From contig NZ_LT900021.1 of assembly GCF_900198835.1 (NCBI RefSeq), positions 992,001 to 1,056,000 of the forward strand: a DNA stretch of 64,000 nt, in the 5' to 3' direction. Shown in pieces: positions 23,617 through 38,342 of the stretch. Origin of the DNA: Thermococcus henrietii (GTDB lineage: Archaea > Methanobacteriota_B > Thermococci > Thermococcales > Thermococcaceae). Each line of letters starts with the position of its first letter. Position 1 is the first letter of the stretch. The position numbers were made by a program, and so were the translations under genes. The notes under the pieces were generated by a model that saw nothing but the letters and a program-made list of their open reading frames with translations, made no database searches and was not told where the DNA came from.

Positions 23617-26600
23617 ATGAAGGCGATTTACAGGGAGGCCTGCCCAAACTGCTCGGGTAGAATCTCCGACGAAAGGCTCGTAATGAAGAACCCCTGTGAT
23701 GAGTGTCTCGATAATCCCGTCACCGCTGAGGACTACTTTGAGCTCGTAAAGGCCGTGAGAAAGGCACTCAAGGAGAGAAAGAAGCTAAAAGCCTGGGAGG
23801 AAATCTACTCCCTCGAAAAGGGGCTCAGGGACGTTGAGAAGTTCTTCGAGAAGGCAACCGGTTTTACCTTCTGGAGCGCCCAGAGGACGTGGGTCAAAAG
23901 GCTCCTCAAGGGAAGGAGCTTCTCGATAATCGCTCCAACCGGAATGGGCAAGAGCACCTTTGGAGCGTTCATGTCCGTCTACTACGCCACGAAGGGCAAG
24001 AAGAGCTACATAGTCGTCCCCACGACACCCCTTGTAATCCAGACCATAAAGAAGGTCCAGGCGATAATCGAGAGAACGGGGCTGGACATTAATCTCGCCT
24101 ACTACCACGGCAACCTCAGGAAGAAGGAAAAGGAAGAGATGCTCGCTAAAATCGAGGGTGAGGACTACGACATACTCATAACGAGCGCCCAGTGGTTAGC
24201 TAGAAACTTTGACGAGAAGCTGAAGGGCAGGCACTTCGACTTTATCTTCGTTGACGACGTCGATGCCTTCCTCAAGGCGAGCAAGAACATAGACCGCTCC
24301 CTCCTCCTTCTCGGCTTCACCGAGGAAATCATCGGCAAGGCGTGGGAAATCATCAGGCTCAGGAAGCAGATGAGCCGTTATCTGAACGGTCGCGCCCAGG
24401 ACAGGGAGGAGAAACTCAAGGAGCTCAACGAGGCCATAGAAAAGCTCCAGCACGAGATTGAAGAGTTCAAGAGGAAGAATGACATCGGAATCATGATTAT
24501 CGCCTCGGCTACCGGTTCGGCGAGGGGCGACAGGATAAAGCTCTACCGCGAACTGCTCGGCTTCGAGGTCGGTTCCGGAAGGAGTGCGCTGAGGAACGTC
24601 GTGGACAGCTACCTGAAGCCGAGTGGGGACGTAAAGGAGCACGTGGCGGAGCTCCTCAGGAAACTCGGGAAGGGCGGCCTGATATTCGTTCCCATCGACC
24701 AGGGGCTGAGCTACGCTGAGGAGCTCGTGAACTATCTTAAGGAGAGGGGCTTCGCCGTTGAGCTCGCGAGCTCGAAGAACAAGAAGGCCGTTGAGAGGTT
24801 TGAGAACGGCGAGGCCGATTACCTGGTCGGCGTGGCAACCTACTACGGCTCGATAGTCAGGGGGCTTGATTTGCCCCACCTCATCCGCTACGCGGTCTTT
24901 ACGGGCGTCCCGAAGTTCAGGTTTTCGATAGACCTTGAGAGGCCCACCATATACCGCGCCCTCGGTCTGCTCAGCGAGGTTATGGACTTCCTCGACGACG
25001 AGGACAGGAGGAAGGCCGAAAAGCTGCACGCGAGGCTCAGGAGGCTGATTAGAAACATCCCGCAGTTCGAGCTCCTCAAGATTGAGGAGGCCCTGGCGGA
25101 AGGCCTTCCCATCGAGAACGACTTCCACAGGACGGTTCTCAACGTCTTCCGCGAGCTCGTCGAGTTCCTGCGCGAGGTCCTGAAGAAGGAGGACGTTCTC
25201 AAGAGGCTCGCGGAGGACCCCTTCGTCAGCCTCGTGAAGGAAGAGGGCAAGTGGTTCATCGAGATTCCGGACGTCAGGACGTACATCCAGGCTACCGGGA
25301 GGACGAGCAGGCTATTTGCCGGCGGAATAACGAAGGGACTCAGCGTCCTCATAGTGGACAACGAGAAGGTCTTCAACGGCCTTGTCAGGCAGATGCGCTG
25401 GCGCTTCACCGAGTTCAAGATGGTGCCCTTCGAGGAGCTCGACCTCGAGGAACTCCTGAGGGAGATAGACGAGGACAGGGAGAAGGTAAGGCTCGTAATG
25501 GAGGGCAAGATAAGCTCGAAGGTCAAGGACCTCGTTAAATCGGCCCTCATGATTGTGGAGAGCCCCAACAAGGCCAGGACGATAGCCAACTTCTTCGGCA
25601 GGCCGAGCAAGAGGCGCATCGGTGATTTGGTCGCCTACGAGGTGAGCATAGGCAACAGACAGCTGACGATTCTCGCGAGCGGGGGCCACATGTTCGACCT
25701 CGTCACTGACGAGGGCTACCACGGCGTCCTAATCGAGCGCGAGGAGGATATGCTCCGGTTTATTCCGGTCTACGACACCATAAAGCGGTGCCGTGACTGT
25801 GGCTACCAGTTCGTGGACTGGGAGAAGAAAGGCATCTGCCCGCGCTGTGGCTCAACGAACGTCCGCGACGCCCTTGAGAACGTCATCGCGATGCGCGAGA
25901 TTGCTCAGGAGGTCGACGAGATACTCATCGCAACCGACCCTGATACGGAGGGTGAGAAGATAGCCTGGGACATAAGGAACATTCTGAGCCCCTACACGCC
26001 GAACATCAAGAGGACGGAATTCCACGAGGTCACGAGGCCGGCCATACTGAAGGCAATCGAAGAGGCGAGAGACGTGAACGAGAACCGCGTCGAGGCTCAG
26101 ATTGTGAGGCGCATAGAGGACAGGTGGATAGGCTTCGAGCTGAGCGGTGAGCTCCAGAGGGTCTTCGAGAACAGGAACCTCTCCGCTGGCAGGGTTCAGA
26201 CGCCCGTTCTCGGCTGGATTATCAAGAGGTATAAGGAGTTCAGCGAGAGCGAGGTCTACTTCCTCGGCTTAACGCTTGAGAACGGCCTTCAGGTAACGGT
26301 TGAGCTTGGAAAGGACGGCAAGGACGTCGAGCCACCGGAGTACGTTACGGTGGAGGAGGTCCAGCTTGAGGAGAGGGAGCTCAACCCCGCCCCGCCGTAC
26401 ACGACCGACGCAATGCTCCGCGACGCTTCCACCTTCCTCAAGCTTTCGGCCCCGGAGACGATGCGCTTGGCCCAGGACCTCTTCGAGATGGGTCTCATCA
26501 CCTACCACAGAACCGATTCAACCCACGTGAGCAACGCGGGAATAGAGGTTGCCAGGGAGTACATAACGAGTGAGCTCGGCGAGGAGTACTTCAAGCCGAG

Positions 26601-27291
26601 GCCCTGGGGTGAAGAGGGCACGCACGAGGCCATAAGGCCGACGAGGCCCATCGACACCGGCAGATTGATGCAACTCATTCGCGACGGCGTAATCCAGCTC
26701 CCGAGGAACCTCACGCGCAACCACTACAGGCTCTACGACATGATATTCAGGCGCTTCATGACGAGCCAGATGGTTCCGGCGGTCGTTCTCCACGAGAGGG
26801 CGGTGATAAACGCGGGCGTTGGAAAGGTCGAGCTCGAGGGTTACGTCGAAATCATCAAGGACGGCTGGACGAAACTCAGAAGCCCGCCCATGAGACAGTT
26901 GCCGAAGCTTGAGCAGGGGGCGAAGCTCAAAGTGGTTGAGTCCAAGAAGTGGAAGGCGCCGAAGGTTTCCCTCTACACGCAGGGCGACATAATAGCCCTG
27001 ATGAAGGAGCGCGGTATTGGAAGGCCTTCAACATACGCGAAAATCGTTGAGACCCTCATACGGCGTGGCTACGTTGTCGAGACGAGGGGCAGGAAGAAGC
27101 TCGTTCCGACCGAGAAGGGCATAAAGGTCTACCACTACCTCATCAGCAAGTACCGCGAGCTGGTGAGCGAGGAGCGCACGAGGGAGCTTGAGAAGCTCAT
27201 GGACTTAATCGAGGAAGGAAAGGTCGATTATACTGGGGTTCTAAACGACCTTTACGCCGAGATTAGGCGCTACGTTTATGGGGAAGGGTAA
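23617..27291 (+). CDS. rgy: Reverse gyrase
   Basis: This 1224-residue protein fuses an SF2 helicase-like module to a type IA topoisomerase and introduces positive supercoils with ATP, the hallmark enzyme of hyperthermophiles. The N-terminal zinc finger uses Cys9, 12, 27 and 30. Walker A is [10 protein letters not shown] (107-115) and Walker B DDVD (213-216). [12 protein letters not shown] (559-570) is a helicase VI motif. The Toprim domain shows [12 protein letters not shown] and DPDTEGE (774-780). A second zinc finger uses Cys725, 728, 741 and 744. The catalytic Tyr963 lies in TYHRTDSTH. No intein is present, although this gene hosts inteins elsewhere. Confidence 0.98.
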
Positions 27292-29792: not shown

Positions 29793-29806
29793 AAACTTTA
29801 AAAAGT
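29793..29806 (+). promoter_or_regulatory. TATA promoter of hps-phi
   Basis: AAACTTTAAAAAG lies 43-56 bases before the ATG of the HPS-PHI gene. A divergent TTTAAAAAAG element for the arginase-like gene lies on the minus strand at about 29733-29747. Confidence 0.55.
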
Positions 29807-29848: not shown

Positions 29849-31069
29849 ATGATACTCCAGGTCGCCCTTGATTTGACCGACATCGAGCAGGCCATCTCTA
29901 TAGCTGAGAAGGCCGCTCGCGGTGGCGCTCACTGGCTTGAAGTTGGAACGCCACTCATCAAGAAGGAAGGAATGCGCGCCGTTGAGCTTCTCAAGAGGCG
30001 CTTCCCGGACAGGAAGATTGTTGCAGACCTCAAGACGATGGACACCGGAGCTTTGGAAGTCGAGATGGCCGCGAGGCACGGAGCGGACGTCGTTTCTATT
30101 CTCGGTGTCGCCGACAACAAGACCATAAAGGACGCCGTTGACGTTGCGAGAAGGTATGGAATCAGGGTTATGGTCGACCTAATCGGCGTCAAGGACAAGG
30201 TTAAGCGCGCCAAAGAGCTCGAAAAGATGGGCGTTCACTACATACTCGTCCACACTGGTATAGACGAGCAGGCCCAGGGTAAGAGCCCTCTGCAGGACCT
30301 TGAGGAGGTTGTCAAGGCCGTTAAGGTCCCCGTCGCGGTTGCCGGCGGTCTGAACCTTGAGACGATTCCAAAAGTTATAGAGCTCGGCGCGACGATAATC
30401 ATCGTCGGAAGCGCCATAACCAAGGCCAAGGACCCTGAGAAGGTCACGAGGCAGATAATCGACCTCTTCTGGGGCGAGTACATGCAGACCATCAGAAAGG
30501 CCATGAAGGACATCGTCGAGCACGTGAGCAACGTCGCCGACCAGCTCAAGCTCGAGCAGGTTCGTGGGTTCGTGGATGCAATGATTGGGGCCAACAAGAT
30601 ATTCATCTACGGGGCAGGAAGGAGCGGGCTCGTCGGAAAGGCCTTCGCTATGAGGCTAATGCACCTCGACTTCAACGTCTACGTCGTTGGCGAGACCATA
30701 ACGCCAGCCTTTGAACCGGGAGATTTGCTCATAGCCATCAGCGGTTCCGGTGAGACTACGAGCATAGTTGATGCCGCGAAGATAGCCAAGAAGGAGGGCG
30801 GAAAGGTCGTGGCAATAACCTCCTACGCCAACTCAACCCTCGGAAAGCTCGCCGACGTCGTCGTTGAGATTCCGGGAAGGGCGAAGACGGACATCCCGAC
30901 CGACTACATAGCGCGCCAGATGCTCACCAAGTACAAGTGGGTCGCTCCGATGGGAACGCTCTTCGAGGACTCGACGATGGTGTTCCTCGACGGCGTCATA
31001 GCCCTTCTCATGGCGACCTTCCAGAAGACCGAAAAGGATATGAAGAAGAAGCACGCGACCCTTGAGTGA
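29849..31069 (+). CDS. hps-phi: Bifunctional 3-hexulose-6-phosphate synthase/6-phospho-3-hexuloisomerase
   Basis: This 406-residue fusion has an N-terminal HPS barrel (MILQVALDLTDIEQAI, ADLKTMDTGALEVEMAARHG, VAVAGGLNLETI) and, from about residue 215, a C-terminal PHI domain of the SIS fold (IFIYGAGRSGLVGKAFAMRL, LLIAISGSGETTSIVD). In Thermococcales the enzyme runs in the reverse direction, turning fructose 6-phosphate into ribulose 5-phosphate plus formaldehyde, which replaces the missing oxidative pentose phosphate pathway. CGGAGGT precedes the ATG. The formaldehyde formed may be a substrate for tungsten aldehyde oxidoreductases. Confidence 0.96.
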   Translation: MILQVALDLTDIEQAISIAEKAARGGAHWLEVGTPLIKKEGMRAVELLKRRFPDRKIVADLKTMDTGALEVEMAARHGADVVSILGVADNKTIKDAVDVARRYGIRVMVDLIGVKDKVKRAKELEKMGVHYILVHTGIDEQAQGKSPLQDLEEVVKAVKVPVAVAGGLNLETIPKVIELGATIIIVGSAITKAKDPEKVTRQIIDLFWGEYMQTIRKAMKDIVEHVSNVADQLKLEQVRGFVDAMIGANKIFIYGAGRSGLVGKAFAMRLMHLDFNVYVVGETITPAFEPGDLLIAISGSGETTSIVDAAKIAKKEGGKVVAITSYANSTLGKLADVVVEIPGRAKTDIPTDYIARQMLTKYKWVAPMGTLFEDSTMVFLDGVIALLMATFQKTEKDMKKKHATLE

Positions 31070-31077
31070 GGGTTGCG

Positions 31078-31842
31078 ATGCGCTCTTTCACTCACCTTTT
31101 TGTTGGAATCGGCAACGCTGGAGCCGGGATAGTCGACAGGATAAGCGCCGACGGCGTGGTTAGGGTGACAATCAATCCCGGCCACTACCTTCTGCGCCCG
31201 GGGCGCTACGCGGAGAGAATCAGGGACTTCTTCTCGCACCTGCCCGAGGACACCTTTCTGTGGCTTCTCTTCGAGGACAAGGAGATAAACCTCGAACTGG
31301 TTGACCTTATCCTCGAACACAGCCCCTCGGACGCGATAAAGCTCGCCTACGTCCTCACGCCGAGGAGGGAGCTCATCCACGAGAAGCCGGTTTGGGCCGA
31401 TAACTTCGAGACCGTCTTCTACGACTCCCTCTGGGACTTCCTGAGCGAGGACGTGCCTTTGGGGGTTGCCTTCGAGAGGGCCTCCGTCTCGATAGCCGAG
31501 CTCTTTTCAAGGCTCTACTACTATCTCGAAAACCAGATGCTGGTCAACATAGACTACGCCGACCTGTTCAACATGATTCGCGGGGGCAACGTCGGCATAA
31601 TGCGCCTCCTCGATAGGGTTGACTTCAGCTGGCACTGGGGAATATGGGAGAGGGGTCTGATAGGAATCCTCGTCGGGAACGACTTCCCGCTGAAGGGAGC
31701 CCACGAGATACTGTCGCGTTTCCAGGAAATCCTCGCCGAGAAGGATATAATATGGGGCATCGTGACCGATGAGAACGTTAAGGGTGTCGAGATACTCGCG
31801 TTGCTCGTGAAGGGGTGGGAGGATGAAGGCGGTTCTCTTTGA
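31078..31842 (+). CDS. Diverged FtsZ/tubulin-like protein
   Basis: This 254-residue protein opens with HLFVGIGNAGAGIVDRI, which resembles the nucleotide-binding N-terminus of FtsZ (G-x-G-x-G-N). NMIRGGNVGIMRLLD near residue 165 resembles the FtsZ segment preceding the C-terminal domain, and the end IIWGIVTDENVKGVEILALLVKG resembles the last FtsZ strands. The tubulin signature GGGTGxG is absent; the protein is about 100 residues shorter than FtsZ and reads FLWLLFEDKEINLELVD there. A GTP-independent FtsZ relative is the best guess. It overlaps the HAD gene by 20 bases and follows hps-phi by eight. Confidence 0.65.
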   Translation: MRSFTHLFVGIGNAGAGIVDRISADGVVRVTINPGHYLLRPGRYAERIRDFFSHLPEDTFLWLLFEDKEINLELVDLILEHSPSDAIKLAYVLTPRRELIHEKPVWADNFETVFYDSLWDFLSEDVPLGVAFERASVSIAELFSRLYYYLENQMLVNIDYADLFNMIRGGNVGIMRLLDRVDFSWHWGIWERGLIGILVGNDFPLKGAHEILSRFQEILAEKDIIWGIVTDENVKGVEILALLVKGWEDEGGSL

Positions 31843-32458
31843 CGTTGACGGAACCCTGCTCACGGAAATGCCACTTATTCAGCTCTTCCTCCCCTGGGTC
31901 TACGATGAGCTCGCGAAGAGGCTCGGGGTCACTAAGGAGGAAGCGAGGGAGCGGTTCCTCAACGAGATTATGGCGAGGAGGGACACCTACGACTGGCACG
32001 ACTGGAACTTCTTCTTCAGGCTCTTCAACGTTGACCTCAACTACGAGGAGCTCCTGAGAAGGTATCCCCACAAGCTCCACGTTTACCCGGACGTTGTGCC
32101 CACCCTTGAGTGGCTGAAGGGCAATGGCTACCGCCTCGGTGTCGTCACGAGCGGGCCCGAGTACCAGAGGCTCAAGCTTGAACTTACCGGGCTCGATAAA
32201 TACTTCGACGTAATCGTGACGCGGGAGGACGTGAAGGCGATAAAGCCCGAGCCGAAGATTTTTCTCCACGCCCTTGAAAGGCTCGGCGTTGAGCCCGGTG
32301 AGGCTCTCTACGTTGGCGACTCCCTCAGCCAGGACGTTTACGGGGCCAAGCACGTTGGGATGAAGGCCGTCTGGATTAACCGCGACGGCTCGGACGGCTA
32401 TCACATGGCCGATTACGAGATTAGAACCCTCCACGAGCTTAGGAAGATACTGGGGTGA
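31823..32458 (+). CDS. HAD-superfamily phosphatase
   Basis: This 211-residue HAD hydrolase shows motif I FDVDGTLL, motif II VVTSGPEYQ, motif III KPEPKIF and motif IV VGDSLSQDVYGAKHVG, with a helical cap between residues 15 and 90 (subclass I). Enzymes of this layout dephosphorylate small phosphometabolites such as phosphoglycolate or glyceraldehyde 3-phosphate. The substrate cannot be told from sequence. It overlaps the FtsZ-like gene and is followed five bases later by a small conserved protein. Confidence 0.9.
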   Translation: MKAVLFDVDGTLLTEMPLIQLFLPWVYDELAKRLGVTKEEARERFLNEIMARRDTYDWHDWNFFFRLFNVDLNYEELLRRYPHKLHVYPDVVPTLEWLKGNGYRLGVVTSGPEYQRLKLELTGLDKYFDVIVTREDVKAIKPEPKIFLHALERLGVEPGEALYVGDSLSQDVYGAKHVGMKAVWINRDGSDGYHMADYEIRTLHELRKILG

Positions 32459-36159: not shown

Positions 36160-36191
36160 GAGTGTTGCCTATAATCTAAGGAGGTTTGAAG

Positions 36192-38342
36192 ATGAAAAAA
36201 GTTATGGCGTTTAGTATTATAGGCATTCTAATGTTTTCACTCCTGTTGTCAAGCGTGGGAGTGGTGTCCGCGGATGATACCCTGTACGGTAAGATTTATC
36301 CAAGTGTTGAGCTCTCCCTGGGCTCAAAGGTTACCGTCGGTCCGTACACAATAGAATTCAAGGACACCGACAGGTACTTTACTACCGCCGTTCTTGTAGT
36401 CAGCGGTCCCGAGGGAACCACTCAGGTTTTTGTCCAGGAGGGGACCACCGCTTATTATCCCTCTCAGTCAAACCCAGTGCTTGCCTTCAGGGTTGCCATA
36501 TGGACTCAGAACGACAAGCCGGTTGCCTACTTAGACATTCTCTCCCCCCTCAAGAAGGTCAATCCAAACGCAATAACCCTCAGCGCAGGCGCCACGTACA
36601 ACCTTCCCGTTGGAACCCTTAGGGTGTCATCACTGACGAACACTAGTGCAACCTTCACTGTTTACCTTCCCAACAACCCCGCCCAGAGCATTACTCTCAA
36701 GGCCAACCAGTCGGGAGGTATAACTTACTCTTTCCCCAACTCGGACTTCAAGTACAGCAACTTCGTTTACATAACCGTCCAGAGTGTTTCAACGAAGTCC
36801 GTTACCTTTGACGTTTACATGCCCCGTGTGGCGGCTACGAAGATAACGACGTACTCGGGTAGCGGTTCGTCGTCGTCCAGTTCAAGCTCTTCATCAGGCA
36901 CCCAAACTGTGTCGACAACGCTGATTTACAACGGTGTTCTTTACACAAACGAGAAATTACCAATAACCGTGAACAGCACAAAGTATTACATTGATTTGAT
37001 ATCCGTGGTCTCCACAAAGGTCAGCCTCAAGGTCTACAAAGGTGATAGCGTTGTTGGTGTATTCTTCGTGAACGTCGGCGCGATTCAGGACCTCAAGGGA
37101 ACACCCTTCAAGATTTTAATTCAGAGAACCGAGCCCATTTACAACCGTGCGAGCCTCGTGATTTACGGCCCAGAGAACGCCCAAGTGACTCCAATACTTC
37201 GCTCTGCCGACATCGTTGCAACGATAAGCACAGTTCCAAAAGCCGTGATGCTTGGGGACGACATGATAATCGTAGTCTCAGTTGAAAACAAAGGCAAAGG
37301 AGACGCATACGACGTCACCGTTGCCGCTCCGATACCCAACGGGTTCCAGTTAGTAAGCACTACCAAGAGCTGGACATTTAAGAGCCTTCCAGCCTTCACT
37401 AAGATGCCCGCCCTCATATACGTCCTCAAGCCAACCAAGGTCGGTAAGTTCGACATAGGAAAGGTTCTCGTCAAGTACTACGATGACCAGAGTCTCGAAA
37501 CTGGCCAGATGAAGACGGTTTACTCCGCTCCCCTTACGAACATAGTGGTCTACGGGGTACCGAAACTTTCCGTGTCTGCGGTGGCATACAACGGCAGTAC
37601 AACGGGCAAGTACGTTCACGCTAAGGCCAATCAGGAGGTTACGCTCAAGTTCACAGTATCCGCTCAAAAGGGCAACCCAACGTATGAGTTCATAAAGAAC
37701 GCAACCCTCTACCTCGTGCTTCCAAAAGGCCTCCAGGGCAATTCCCTCATCAAGGTGGGGGACCTGAAAGCGGGTTCCTCCAAGACCGTACAGACCAAGG
37801 TTAAAGTTGCGGGCCAAGCACTCTATAACGTTGGTGCCGTTCTGGTCTACTACGACCCCGTTGGCAACAAGCACGAGCTCAACCTTGGAAACCTAGTAAC
37901 GATAAACAGTGTTCCTCCCGCCGTTGTCACTAAGGAAGTCAAGGTCTGGCCCAGTGAATCTGAGATACCCTCTTACATAGGCCAGCTCCTGACGAAGTCC
38001 AAGGACCCCCAGAAGCTCACCGAGGAGTTGCTCGTTGAACTTGCACCGTATACGACCAATGAGAGCCTATCCCAGTACCTCAACAAGGTTCTCAATGGAA
38101 CCAACTCAACCGGCCTTGCAAAGGTCGCGTACGACACCGTGACCGTGTACTACAAACCCTCAAACCCCTGGAAGCCGCTGGCGGTTATCTTCCTCCTCGC
38201 GACTCTCGTGGTGGCAGGTTTGGCCTATAACTACAGAACCGAAGCCGATAAGCTCCGGGAGAGGCTCGAAAAGAAGAAGAGCAGACGCCCCGGAGGACTT
38301 CCAAAGAAGGAAGAGACCGAGGAAAAAGAGGAGGGCGCTTGA
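36192..38342 (+). CDS. Large exported, membrane-anchored CARDB-like surface protein
   Basis: This 716-residue protein has a signal peptide (MKKVMAFSIIGILMFSLLLSS, cleavage after about VVSA), an ectodomain of beta-sandwich repeats, a serine linker at about residues 227-240, and a C-terminal membrane anchor (PLAVIFLLATLVVAGLAY) followed by a basic tail with KKKSRRP. The segment MIIVVSVENKGKGDAYDV is a typical CARDB/alpha-galactosidase NEW3-like adhesion domain, and VTLKFTVSAQKGNPTYEF looks like another. Similar proteins lie near or in the S-layer of Thermococcales. AAGGAGG precedes the ATG. The function is not deducible beyond cell-surface placement. Confidence 0.85.
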   Translation: MKKVMAFSIIGILMFSLLLSSVGVVSADDTLYGKIYPSVELSLGSKVTVGPYTIEFKDTDRYFTTAVLVVSGPEGTTQVFVQEGTTAYYPSQSNPVLAFRVAIWTQNDKPVAYLDILSPLKKVNPNAITLSAGATYNLPVGTLRVSSLTNTSATFTVYLPNNPAQSITLKANQSGGITYSFPNSDFKYSNFVYITVQSVSTKSVTFDVYMPRVAATKITTYSGSGSSSSSSSSSSGTQTVSTTLIYNGVLYTNEKLPITVNSTKYYIDLISVVSTKVSLKVYKGDSVVGVFFVNVGAIQDLKGTPFKILIQRTEPIYNRASLVIYGPENAQVTPILRSADIVATISTVPKAVMLGDDMIIVVSVENKGKGDAYDVTVAAPIPNGFQLVSTTKSWTFKSLPAFTKMPALIYVLKPTKVGKFDIGKVLVKYYDDQSLETGQMKTVYSAPLTNIVVYGVPKLSVSAVAYNGSTTGKYVHAKANQEVTLKFTVSAQKGNPTYEFIKNATLYLVLPKGLQGNSLIKVGDLKAGSSKTVQTKVKVAGQALYNVGAVLVYYDPVGNKHELNLGNLVTINSVPPAVVTKEVKVWPSESEIPSYIGQLLTKSKDPQKLTEELLVELAPYTTNESLSQYLNKVLNGTNSTGLAKVAYDTVTVYYKPSNPWKPLAVIFLLATLVVAGLAYNYRTEADKLRERLEKKKSRRPGGLPKKEETEEKEEGA

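Follow-up and report, generated by a model that had tools for sequence, protein, structure and literature searches.

An FtsZ-type protein of Thermococcaceae that lacks the GTP-binding signature and keeps the T7 loop

Introduction

The GTPase site of FtsZ is composite, with the nucleotide coming from one subunit and the T7 loop from the next. Within the tubulin superfamily, gamma-tubulin is dedicated to a single end of the filament; it presents its nucleotide face and binds GTP itself. In the chloroplast, ARC3 has an FtsZ-like domain that lacks GTPase function. As far as the accessible part of the source describes it, ARC3 is a negative regulator of FtsZ assembly (PMC5471200). MinC, SulA, MciZ and MipZ each occupy one polymerisation face of FtsZ; in the available text of PMC11938149, where they are not presented as FtsZ relatives, the antagonists with known structures bind the C-terminal, plus-end face, and binding to the N-terminal, minus-end face is expected to promote nucleation and stabilisation. 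The two halves of the site are described for S. aureus FtsZ in the part of PMC8936486 that was available: the catalytic water is held by N208, D210 and D213, which lie in T7 of the upper subunit; D46, Q48, G72 and R143 belong with the nucleotide to the lower subunit; and there are four contact regions, in which H10, S9, H8 and T7 from above meet, respectively, the lower subunit's H6-H7 loop, T5, T3 and H1/H2, so that S9 touches T5. The same text calls the polarity of the filament tentative.

Diverged members of the superfamily have been described before. FtsZl1 and FtsZl2 both keep GGGTG(S/T)G, and in FtsZl1 the T6-H7 region is not identifiable, according to the accessible description (Makarova and Koonin 2010; PMC2875224). 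A census of archaea using JackHMMER (E < 0.03; PMC9856176) reports, in its available part, that each Thermococcales species has one CetZ and that two strains, Thermococcus AM4 and T. gammatolerans, have an "additional highly divergent" superfamily protein. Here we describe a further diverged member, called FtsZl below, from a stretch of Thermococcus henrietii DNA (the window: all 64,000 nucleotides that were analysed). The available text of PMC9856176 does not treat it as a family, and in the open-licence literature we recognised no description of it; it may have been noticed earlier elsewhere.

Results and Discussion

Locus and gene order

The FtsZl open frame starts with an ATG at 31078 and its stop codon ends at 31842, giving a product of 254 residues. 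It is the second of three genes that run in the same direction:

29796-29805, + strand: TATA-like sequence ctttaaaaag upstream of hps-phi, picked out by eye
29849-31069, + strand: hps-phi, a 3-hexulose-6-phosphate synthase / 6-phospho-3-hexuloisomerase fusion gene, upstream, ending 8 nt before the FtsZl ATG
31078-31842, + strand: FtsZ-type gene without the nucleotide signature (FtsZl), 254 aa, stop codon included
31823-32458, + strand: HAD-family phosphatase gene, downstream, overlapping the end of FtsZl by 20 nt

An earlier note on this DNA, made from the sequence alone, had correctly placed the gene between hps-phi and a phosphatase gene. The hps-phi product has OMPdecase/HUMPS and SIS domains, and a D-glutamate-cyclase-like gene and an HD-domain gene are further neighbours. 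The sequence ctttaaaaag is a possible candidate promoter for the three-gene run; the TATA pattern AAAYATDTW, which was poorly chosen, had no match in the window. Gene order is established across the family. In 63 loci from 62 genomes the HAD gene lies 3' of FtsZl without exception, hps-phi lies 5' within 57 nt in 61, and the order hps-phi, FtsZl, HAD is direct in 61. In the other two (L026 and L029) an extra frame separates hps-phi from FtsZl:

L026, 684-1389, and L029, 655-1387 (coordinates with FtsZl turned to the + strand): phosphoglycerate-mutase-like frame, presumably so named correctly, given its RHGESLWNKLNLFTGW start

Relationship to FtsZ by sequence

A family profile was needed because searches with the single FtsZl sequence were too weak: Pfam gave no match, NCBIfam ftsZ (TIGR00065) matched at E 0.0074, its 15.6 bits lying below the curated cut-off of 295.2, and phmmer against the PDB reached E 0.011. 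A profile of 36 members found M. jannaschii FtsZ in the PDB at E 1.2e-6; its top 12 rows were all FtsZ, and only 4jjp among the 46 rows to E 10 fell outside the tubulin superfamily. Of the 36 members, 33 matched TIGR00065 at E ≤ 0.1, the lowest E being 4.6e-8, and 16 matched the C-terminal domain of FtsZ in Pfam. Within the host genome, PF00091 (the tubulin GTPase domain) identified three proteins, L044, L045 and L046, which motifs and lengths assign to FtsZ1 (383 residues), FtsZ2 (416) and CetZ (387), respectively; FtsZl was not found by that search at E ≤ 10. Against these lengths, the 254 residues of FtsZl make the earlier description of the protein as about 100 residues short a fair one. 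Taken as single comparisons, hhalign E-values to the proteins of the same genome were 2.3e-9 for FtsZ2, 4.9e-8 for FtsZ1 and 0.066 over 39 columns for CetZ, the genome's one CetZ-type match, so that no sequence similarity to CetZ was detected. Further hhalign runs gave 2.5e-11 for FtsZ2 against 2.6e-8 for FtsZ1, a slight preference for FtsZ2.

A tree was built from the shared C-terminal part of 18 of 62 FtsZl sequences, 14 FtsZ1, 10 of 12 FtsZ2 (L119 and L121 were left out), two G037 rows and two CetZ. In it the FtsZl sequences share a single, fully supported branch of length 6.6, and it does not separate an origin from FtsZ1, from FtsZ2 or from an older split. FtsZl belongs to the FtsZ/tubulin superfamily, fails the FtsZ GTP-loop and score tests, and is not affiliated with CetZ by sequence. 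The claim that 31078-31842 encodes an FtsZ-type relative without the GTP-binding signature was borne out, by the profile match above and by the motif counts given below. The strings that the earlier note quoted also occur in FtsZ order: HLFVGIGNAGAGIV at residues 6-19 (the T1 region), NMIRGGNVGIMR at 165-176 and IIWGIVTDENVKG at 224-236 (S9).

Predicted fold and anatomy

Structures were predicted with AlphaFold from family alignments that held no FtsZ, and without templates, for the window FtsZl (pLDDT 86.3, pTM 0.86) and for the orthologue L089 (48% identity; pLDDT 84.1, pTM 0.85). For each of the two models all 50 Foldseek matches listed were FtsZ. VIA-align superposed 239 of the 254 residues of the window FtsZl on P. 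aeruginosa FtsZ (Z 20.3, rmsd 3.3), and a tied Z of 19.9 was obtained with Methanosaeta CetZ (3zid), whose fold is thus also like that of FtsZl. The tubulin-like fold, the absence of which would have refuted the earlier note, is regarded as established; model confidence is low at T7, where residues 151-160 average 66 in the window FtsZl and 60 in L089.

The fold of archaeal FtsZ1 and FtsZ2 (TIGR00065) is common to FtsZl over nearly the whole chain. When predicted secondary structure is assigned to FtsZ elements by order along the chain, the N-terminal half of the model comprises S1 (5-11), H1 (12-20), S2 (28-32), H2 (34-39), H3 (41-53) and S4 (59-66). The middle comprises H4 (69-81), S5 (87-93), a short T5/H5 remnant (94-111), S6 (112-116), H6 (119-122) and H7 (128-152). 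T7, H8 (160-167), S7 (171-178) and S8 (192-199) follow, with no H9 between the last two, and the chain closes with H10 (205-218), S9 (223-230) and S10 (237-246). The shortening therefore falls on S3/T3, T4, T5/H5, H9 and the tails. Unlike FtsZ1 and FtsZ2, FtsZl stops just past S10 and lacks the disordered C-terminal FtsZ tail: S10 stops at 246, the window chain at 254, and many members already at W247. The features that matter below are these:

31105-31122, + strand: T1-like loop GIGNAG, residues 10-15; G10 and G12 invariant, G15 in 61 of 62 orthologues
31174-31188, + strand: NPGHY at the T2 position, residues 33-37, where FtsZ1 and FtsZ2 have NTD(A/S)Q
31276-31281, + strand: place of T4, a predicted two-residue turn (67-68) from S4 (59-66) to H4 (69-81), with GGGTG(S/T)G missing
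31360-31428, + strand: rebuilt T5-S6-T6 stretch, residues 95-117, marked by its conservation
31546-31563, + strand: T7 synergy loop NIDYAD, residues 157-162; N157, D159, A161 and D162 invariant in 62 of 62
31612-31650, + strand: residues 179-191, which replace helix H9; W185, W187, G188 and W190 invariant
31741-31758, + strand: start of strand S9, KDIIWG, residues 222-227

Distribution and selection

Of 94 Thermococcaceae genomes, 89 have an FtsZl orthologue; among the 74 with at least 90% completeness and at most 5% contamination the number is 72. A clean loss was seen in none of the five misses, because three are contig breaks (a contig end cuts hps-phi on its FtsZl side in G016 and G033, and the HAD gene on its FtsZl side in G088) and in the other two, G002 and G077, which may or may not be losses, neither hps-phi nor a close HAD match was found. 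None of the 21 other genomes of the phylum had FtsZl at E ≤ 1e-12. Weak profile matches (E ≤ 0.001) occurred in at least 15 of these 21, the best listed at 8.2e-7, and among them the match in G047 alone was tied to a full-length FtsZ. Two exact peptide patterns, a kind of scan that detects close relatives only, hit 26 loci in genome contigs, whose titles all named Thermococcus, Thermococci, Thermococcales or Thermococcaceae. Two of 61 genomes of the genus (G078 and G090) had one tubulin-domain match more than FtsZ1, FtsZ2 and CetZ account for, and the extra divergent proteins reported from Thermococcus AM4 and T. gammatolerans could be FtsZl members or another protein.

For comparison, 62 distinct orthologues from 62 genomes were used (246-262 residues, median 251), 47% to 99.6% identical to the window FtsZl. 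Mean identity was 55% among 12 FtsZl members, 70% among the FtsZ2 of the same 12 genomes, and 79% among 14 FtsZ1 rows. The ratio dN/dS was 0.05-0.15 in six of seven FtsZl pairs, the seventh pair being saturated, and 49 of 247 positions were invariant. FtsZl is a real, selected family, and the observation goes beyond chance: the family profile gives a significant relationship to FtsZ, dN/dS is low and the gene is retained across the Thermococcaceae.

Three oddities were met in these data. One genome holds, beside an intact copy on another contig (C3), a second FtsZl copy in two overlapping pieces in different frames (G095:C2:360944-361698). One assembly, possibly a mixed one, has two full FtsZl matches (G093:C157 and G093:C33; 72% and 63% identity to the query). 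A partial tubulin-domain match (G064:C1:1627565-1627783; 31.3 bits, 33.2 with neighbours) lies within an open frame of 1135 residues.

One half of the GTPase site lost, the other kept

The T4 signature GGGTG(S/T)G occurs in none of the 62 orthologues, and the T7 motif N-x-D-x-A-D (N157, D159, D162) occurs in all of them; both the T4 loss and the T7 invariance are established. As a control, T4, T7 and NTD(A/S)Q were all kept in 14 of 14 FtsZ1 and 12 of 12 FtsZ2 rows. FtsZl has NIDYAD at T7 where its own genome's FtsZ2 has NIDFAD and FtsZ1 has NLDFND, and the IxWG strand S9 is likewise common to FtsZl, FtsZ1 and FtsZ2; unlike those two, FtsZl has a changed T2, a shortened T5/H5 and no H9 as well as no T4 signature. 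At the positions of S. aureus D46 and Q48 (35 and 37, where the alignment is weakly scored) FtsZl has G/A/T/S/N and Y/L, and the region of the H5 arginine (R143) falls in the T5/H5 stretch that is shortened to 94-111 in the model. Judged from these motifs, the acceptor half of the composite GTPase site is gone from FtsZl, and the donor half, T7, is kept without exception (62/62). The earlier note was right that the glycine signature is absent, and its reading was incomplete in that the intact NIDYAD at 157-162 was missed and with it the one-sidedness of the loss, which would give FtsZl a specific mechanism and a specific filament end. The note's wider reading, a non-polymerising FtsZ relative that regulates assembly, is supported in part: the FtsZ kinship and the missing signature hold, and the lack of polymerisation and an action on FtsZ are putative. 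In CetZ, unlike FtsZl, the T4 loop is retained and T7 reads TLDASD. FtsZl also stands apart from FtsZl1 and FtsZl2 as they are described in the accessible part of PMC2875224, having lost the GTP loop and kept H7-T7; FtsZl1, with its GTP loop kept, is the mirror case.

Mean entropy in FtsZl was 0.34 bits at T7, against 1.12 at T1, 1.15 at T2/H2, 1.17 at T5/H5, 1.20 at T6 and 1.50 at T4. The chance that the three named T7 positions are all invariant is about 0.7% if positions are independent, which does not hold. T7 is not the most conserved element, as S6 (0.03 bits, the lowest in FtsZl) and S7 (0.28) lie below it, and the other donor-face elements are ordinary (H8 0.97, S9 0.81, H10 1.18 bits). 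At one site the window FtsZl itself is unusual: residue 17 (31126-31128) is G, whereas R or K stands there in 52 of the 62 orthologues.

A proposed role at one filament end, and its alternatives

The predicted fold of FtsZl is that of FtsZ, and retained with it are the elements (T7 loop, H8, S9, H10) by which one FtsZ subunit seats on its neighbour's nucleotide face; FtsZl's own GTP pocket is probably unusable. Given the retained donor face and the retained catalytic residues, docking and capping is the simplest inference: FtsZl may be a one-sided FtsZ that binds GTP-loaded FtsZ from above, on its nucleotide side, completes the site and caps the filament end, a tentative proposal that we put a little below an even chance. 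The docking place would be the GTP face that FtsZ1 or FtsZ2 leaves exposed, either in a monomer or at that end of a filament, where N157, D159 and D162 of FtsZl would complete the composite active site and the bound GTP would be hydrolysed in trans; the filament would end there, as no further FtsZ could stack on the remade upper face. By the polarity given in the available parts of PMC11938149 and PMC8936486, the capped end would be the minus end. Binding there would be expected to stabilise or nucleate filaments or, should hydrolysis dominate, to shorten them instead. Like MinC, SulA, MciZ and MipZ, FtsZl would occupy one polymerisation face of FtsZ, although those proteins bind the C-terminal plus-end face and FtsZl would bind the N-terminal nucleotide face (PMC11938149, in the part available).

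A plain cap would not need the invariants found on the other side of the molecule. The T5-S6-T6 stretch holds P95, E98, L99, P104, W106, F110, T112, F114, Y115, D116 and S117, all invariant, eight of them (P95, E98, L99, P104, W106, F110, D116 and S117) in T5/H5 and T6. Together with the conservation of S6 and S7, this indicates that the upper face is therefore remade and under constraint rather than simply decayed, and it argues against a simply dead face. The same observation makes room for FtsZl to assemble with itself or with a non-FtsZ partner, T7 fitting the remade upper face in nucleotide-free dimers or filaments: both faces, T7 and T5-S6-T6, are conserved, and FtsZ-type stacking geometry is retained in the model. 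Such assembly leaves unexplained why the exact catalytic residues, and not shape alone, are kept in 62 of 62, and the FtsZl genomes examined also have FtsZ1 and FtsZ2 (12 of 12 Thermococcaceae, each with at least three tubulin-domain matches); we consider it unlikely.

The gene order raises the alternative that FtsZl works off the cytoskeleton, as a metabolite-binding regulator or as an accessory protein of hps-phi and the HAD enzyme, with the guanine pocket rebuilt for a different ligand and T7 kept for folding. The direct order in 61 of 63 loci, with the phosphoglycerate-mutase-like frame intervening in the remaining two, fits this, as does the rebuilt T5/T6 stretch with its invariant D116 and S117. 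However, where genomes are compact, gene order by itself says little, T7 is known as a surface loop that acts catalytically in trans (PMC8936486, as accessible), and the fold does not require the asparagine at T7, which reads TLDASD in the genome's own CetZ. This reading, too, seems improbable to us.

Less probable again, and in our judgement quite doubtful, is that FtsZl still binds nucleotide, in an atypical manner, and forms the usual kind of FtsZ- or CetZ-like polymer despite its shortening. Its T1-like loop does keep GxGxxG (G10 and G12 in 62 of 62, G15 in 61); the loop aligns weakly, at 1.3 bits, with T1 of M. jannaschii FtsZ. All 62 orthologues have F or Y at position 132, which we take to be the aromatic residue that stacks on guanine in FtsZ, and its retention means that some ligand could bind. 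Against a nucleotide-binding polymer, the T4 glycine loop has become a two-residue turn, the T2 positions of D and Q are changed, and PF00091 does not match FtsZl in its own genome even at E ≤ 10. A decaying paralogue without function, which the fast divergence relative to FtsZ2 might suggest, is refuted in practice by the low dN/dS, the 49 invariant positions and the presence of the gene in 89 of 94 genomes.

To return to the one-sided FtsZ, its fuller version is a dedicated FtsZ end subunit in Thermococcales, a T7-half donor on the minus end that would nucleate or stabilise filaments or time their hydrolysis and would be made together with enzymes of carbon metabolism; as a whole we rate this rather unlikely. 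Its last element comes from the gene order with hps-phi and the HAD phosphatase, which suggests that the level of FtsZl follows carbon and pentose metabolism. If the proposal holds, FtsZl would play the kinetic part of gamma-tubulin from the other side of the subunit, offering T7 and not the nucleotide face, and the first FtsZ-made regulator of FtsZ to act as a GTPase half-site in trans. ARC3 differs from it in being a multidomain plant protein with MORN repeats. A natural family that has the T7 half alone is a ready tool for asking what each filament end does, and FtsZl suggests that the FtsZ system of an archaeal order whose division is little studied has a component so far unrecognised.

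Other features of the window

Elsewhere in the window, 23617-27291 encodes a reverse gyrase with topoisomerase, toprim, helicase and zf_Rg domains, which fits a hyperthermophile. A frame of 718 residues at 36186-38342 has a single, translocon-associated-protein-beta-like match (E 4.2e-7).
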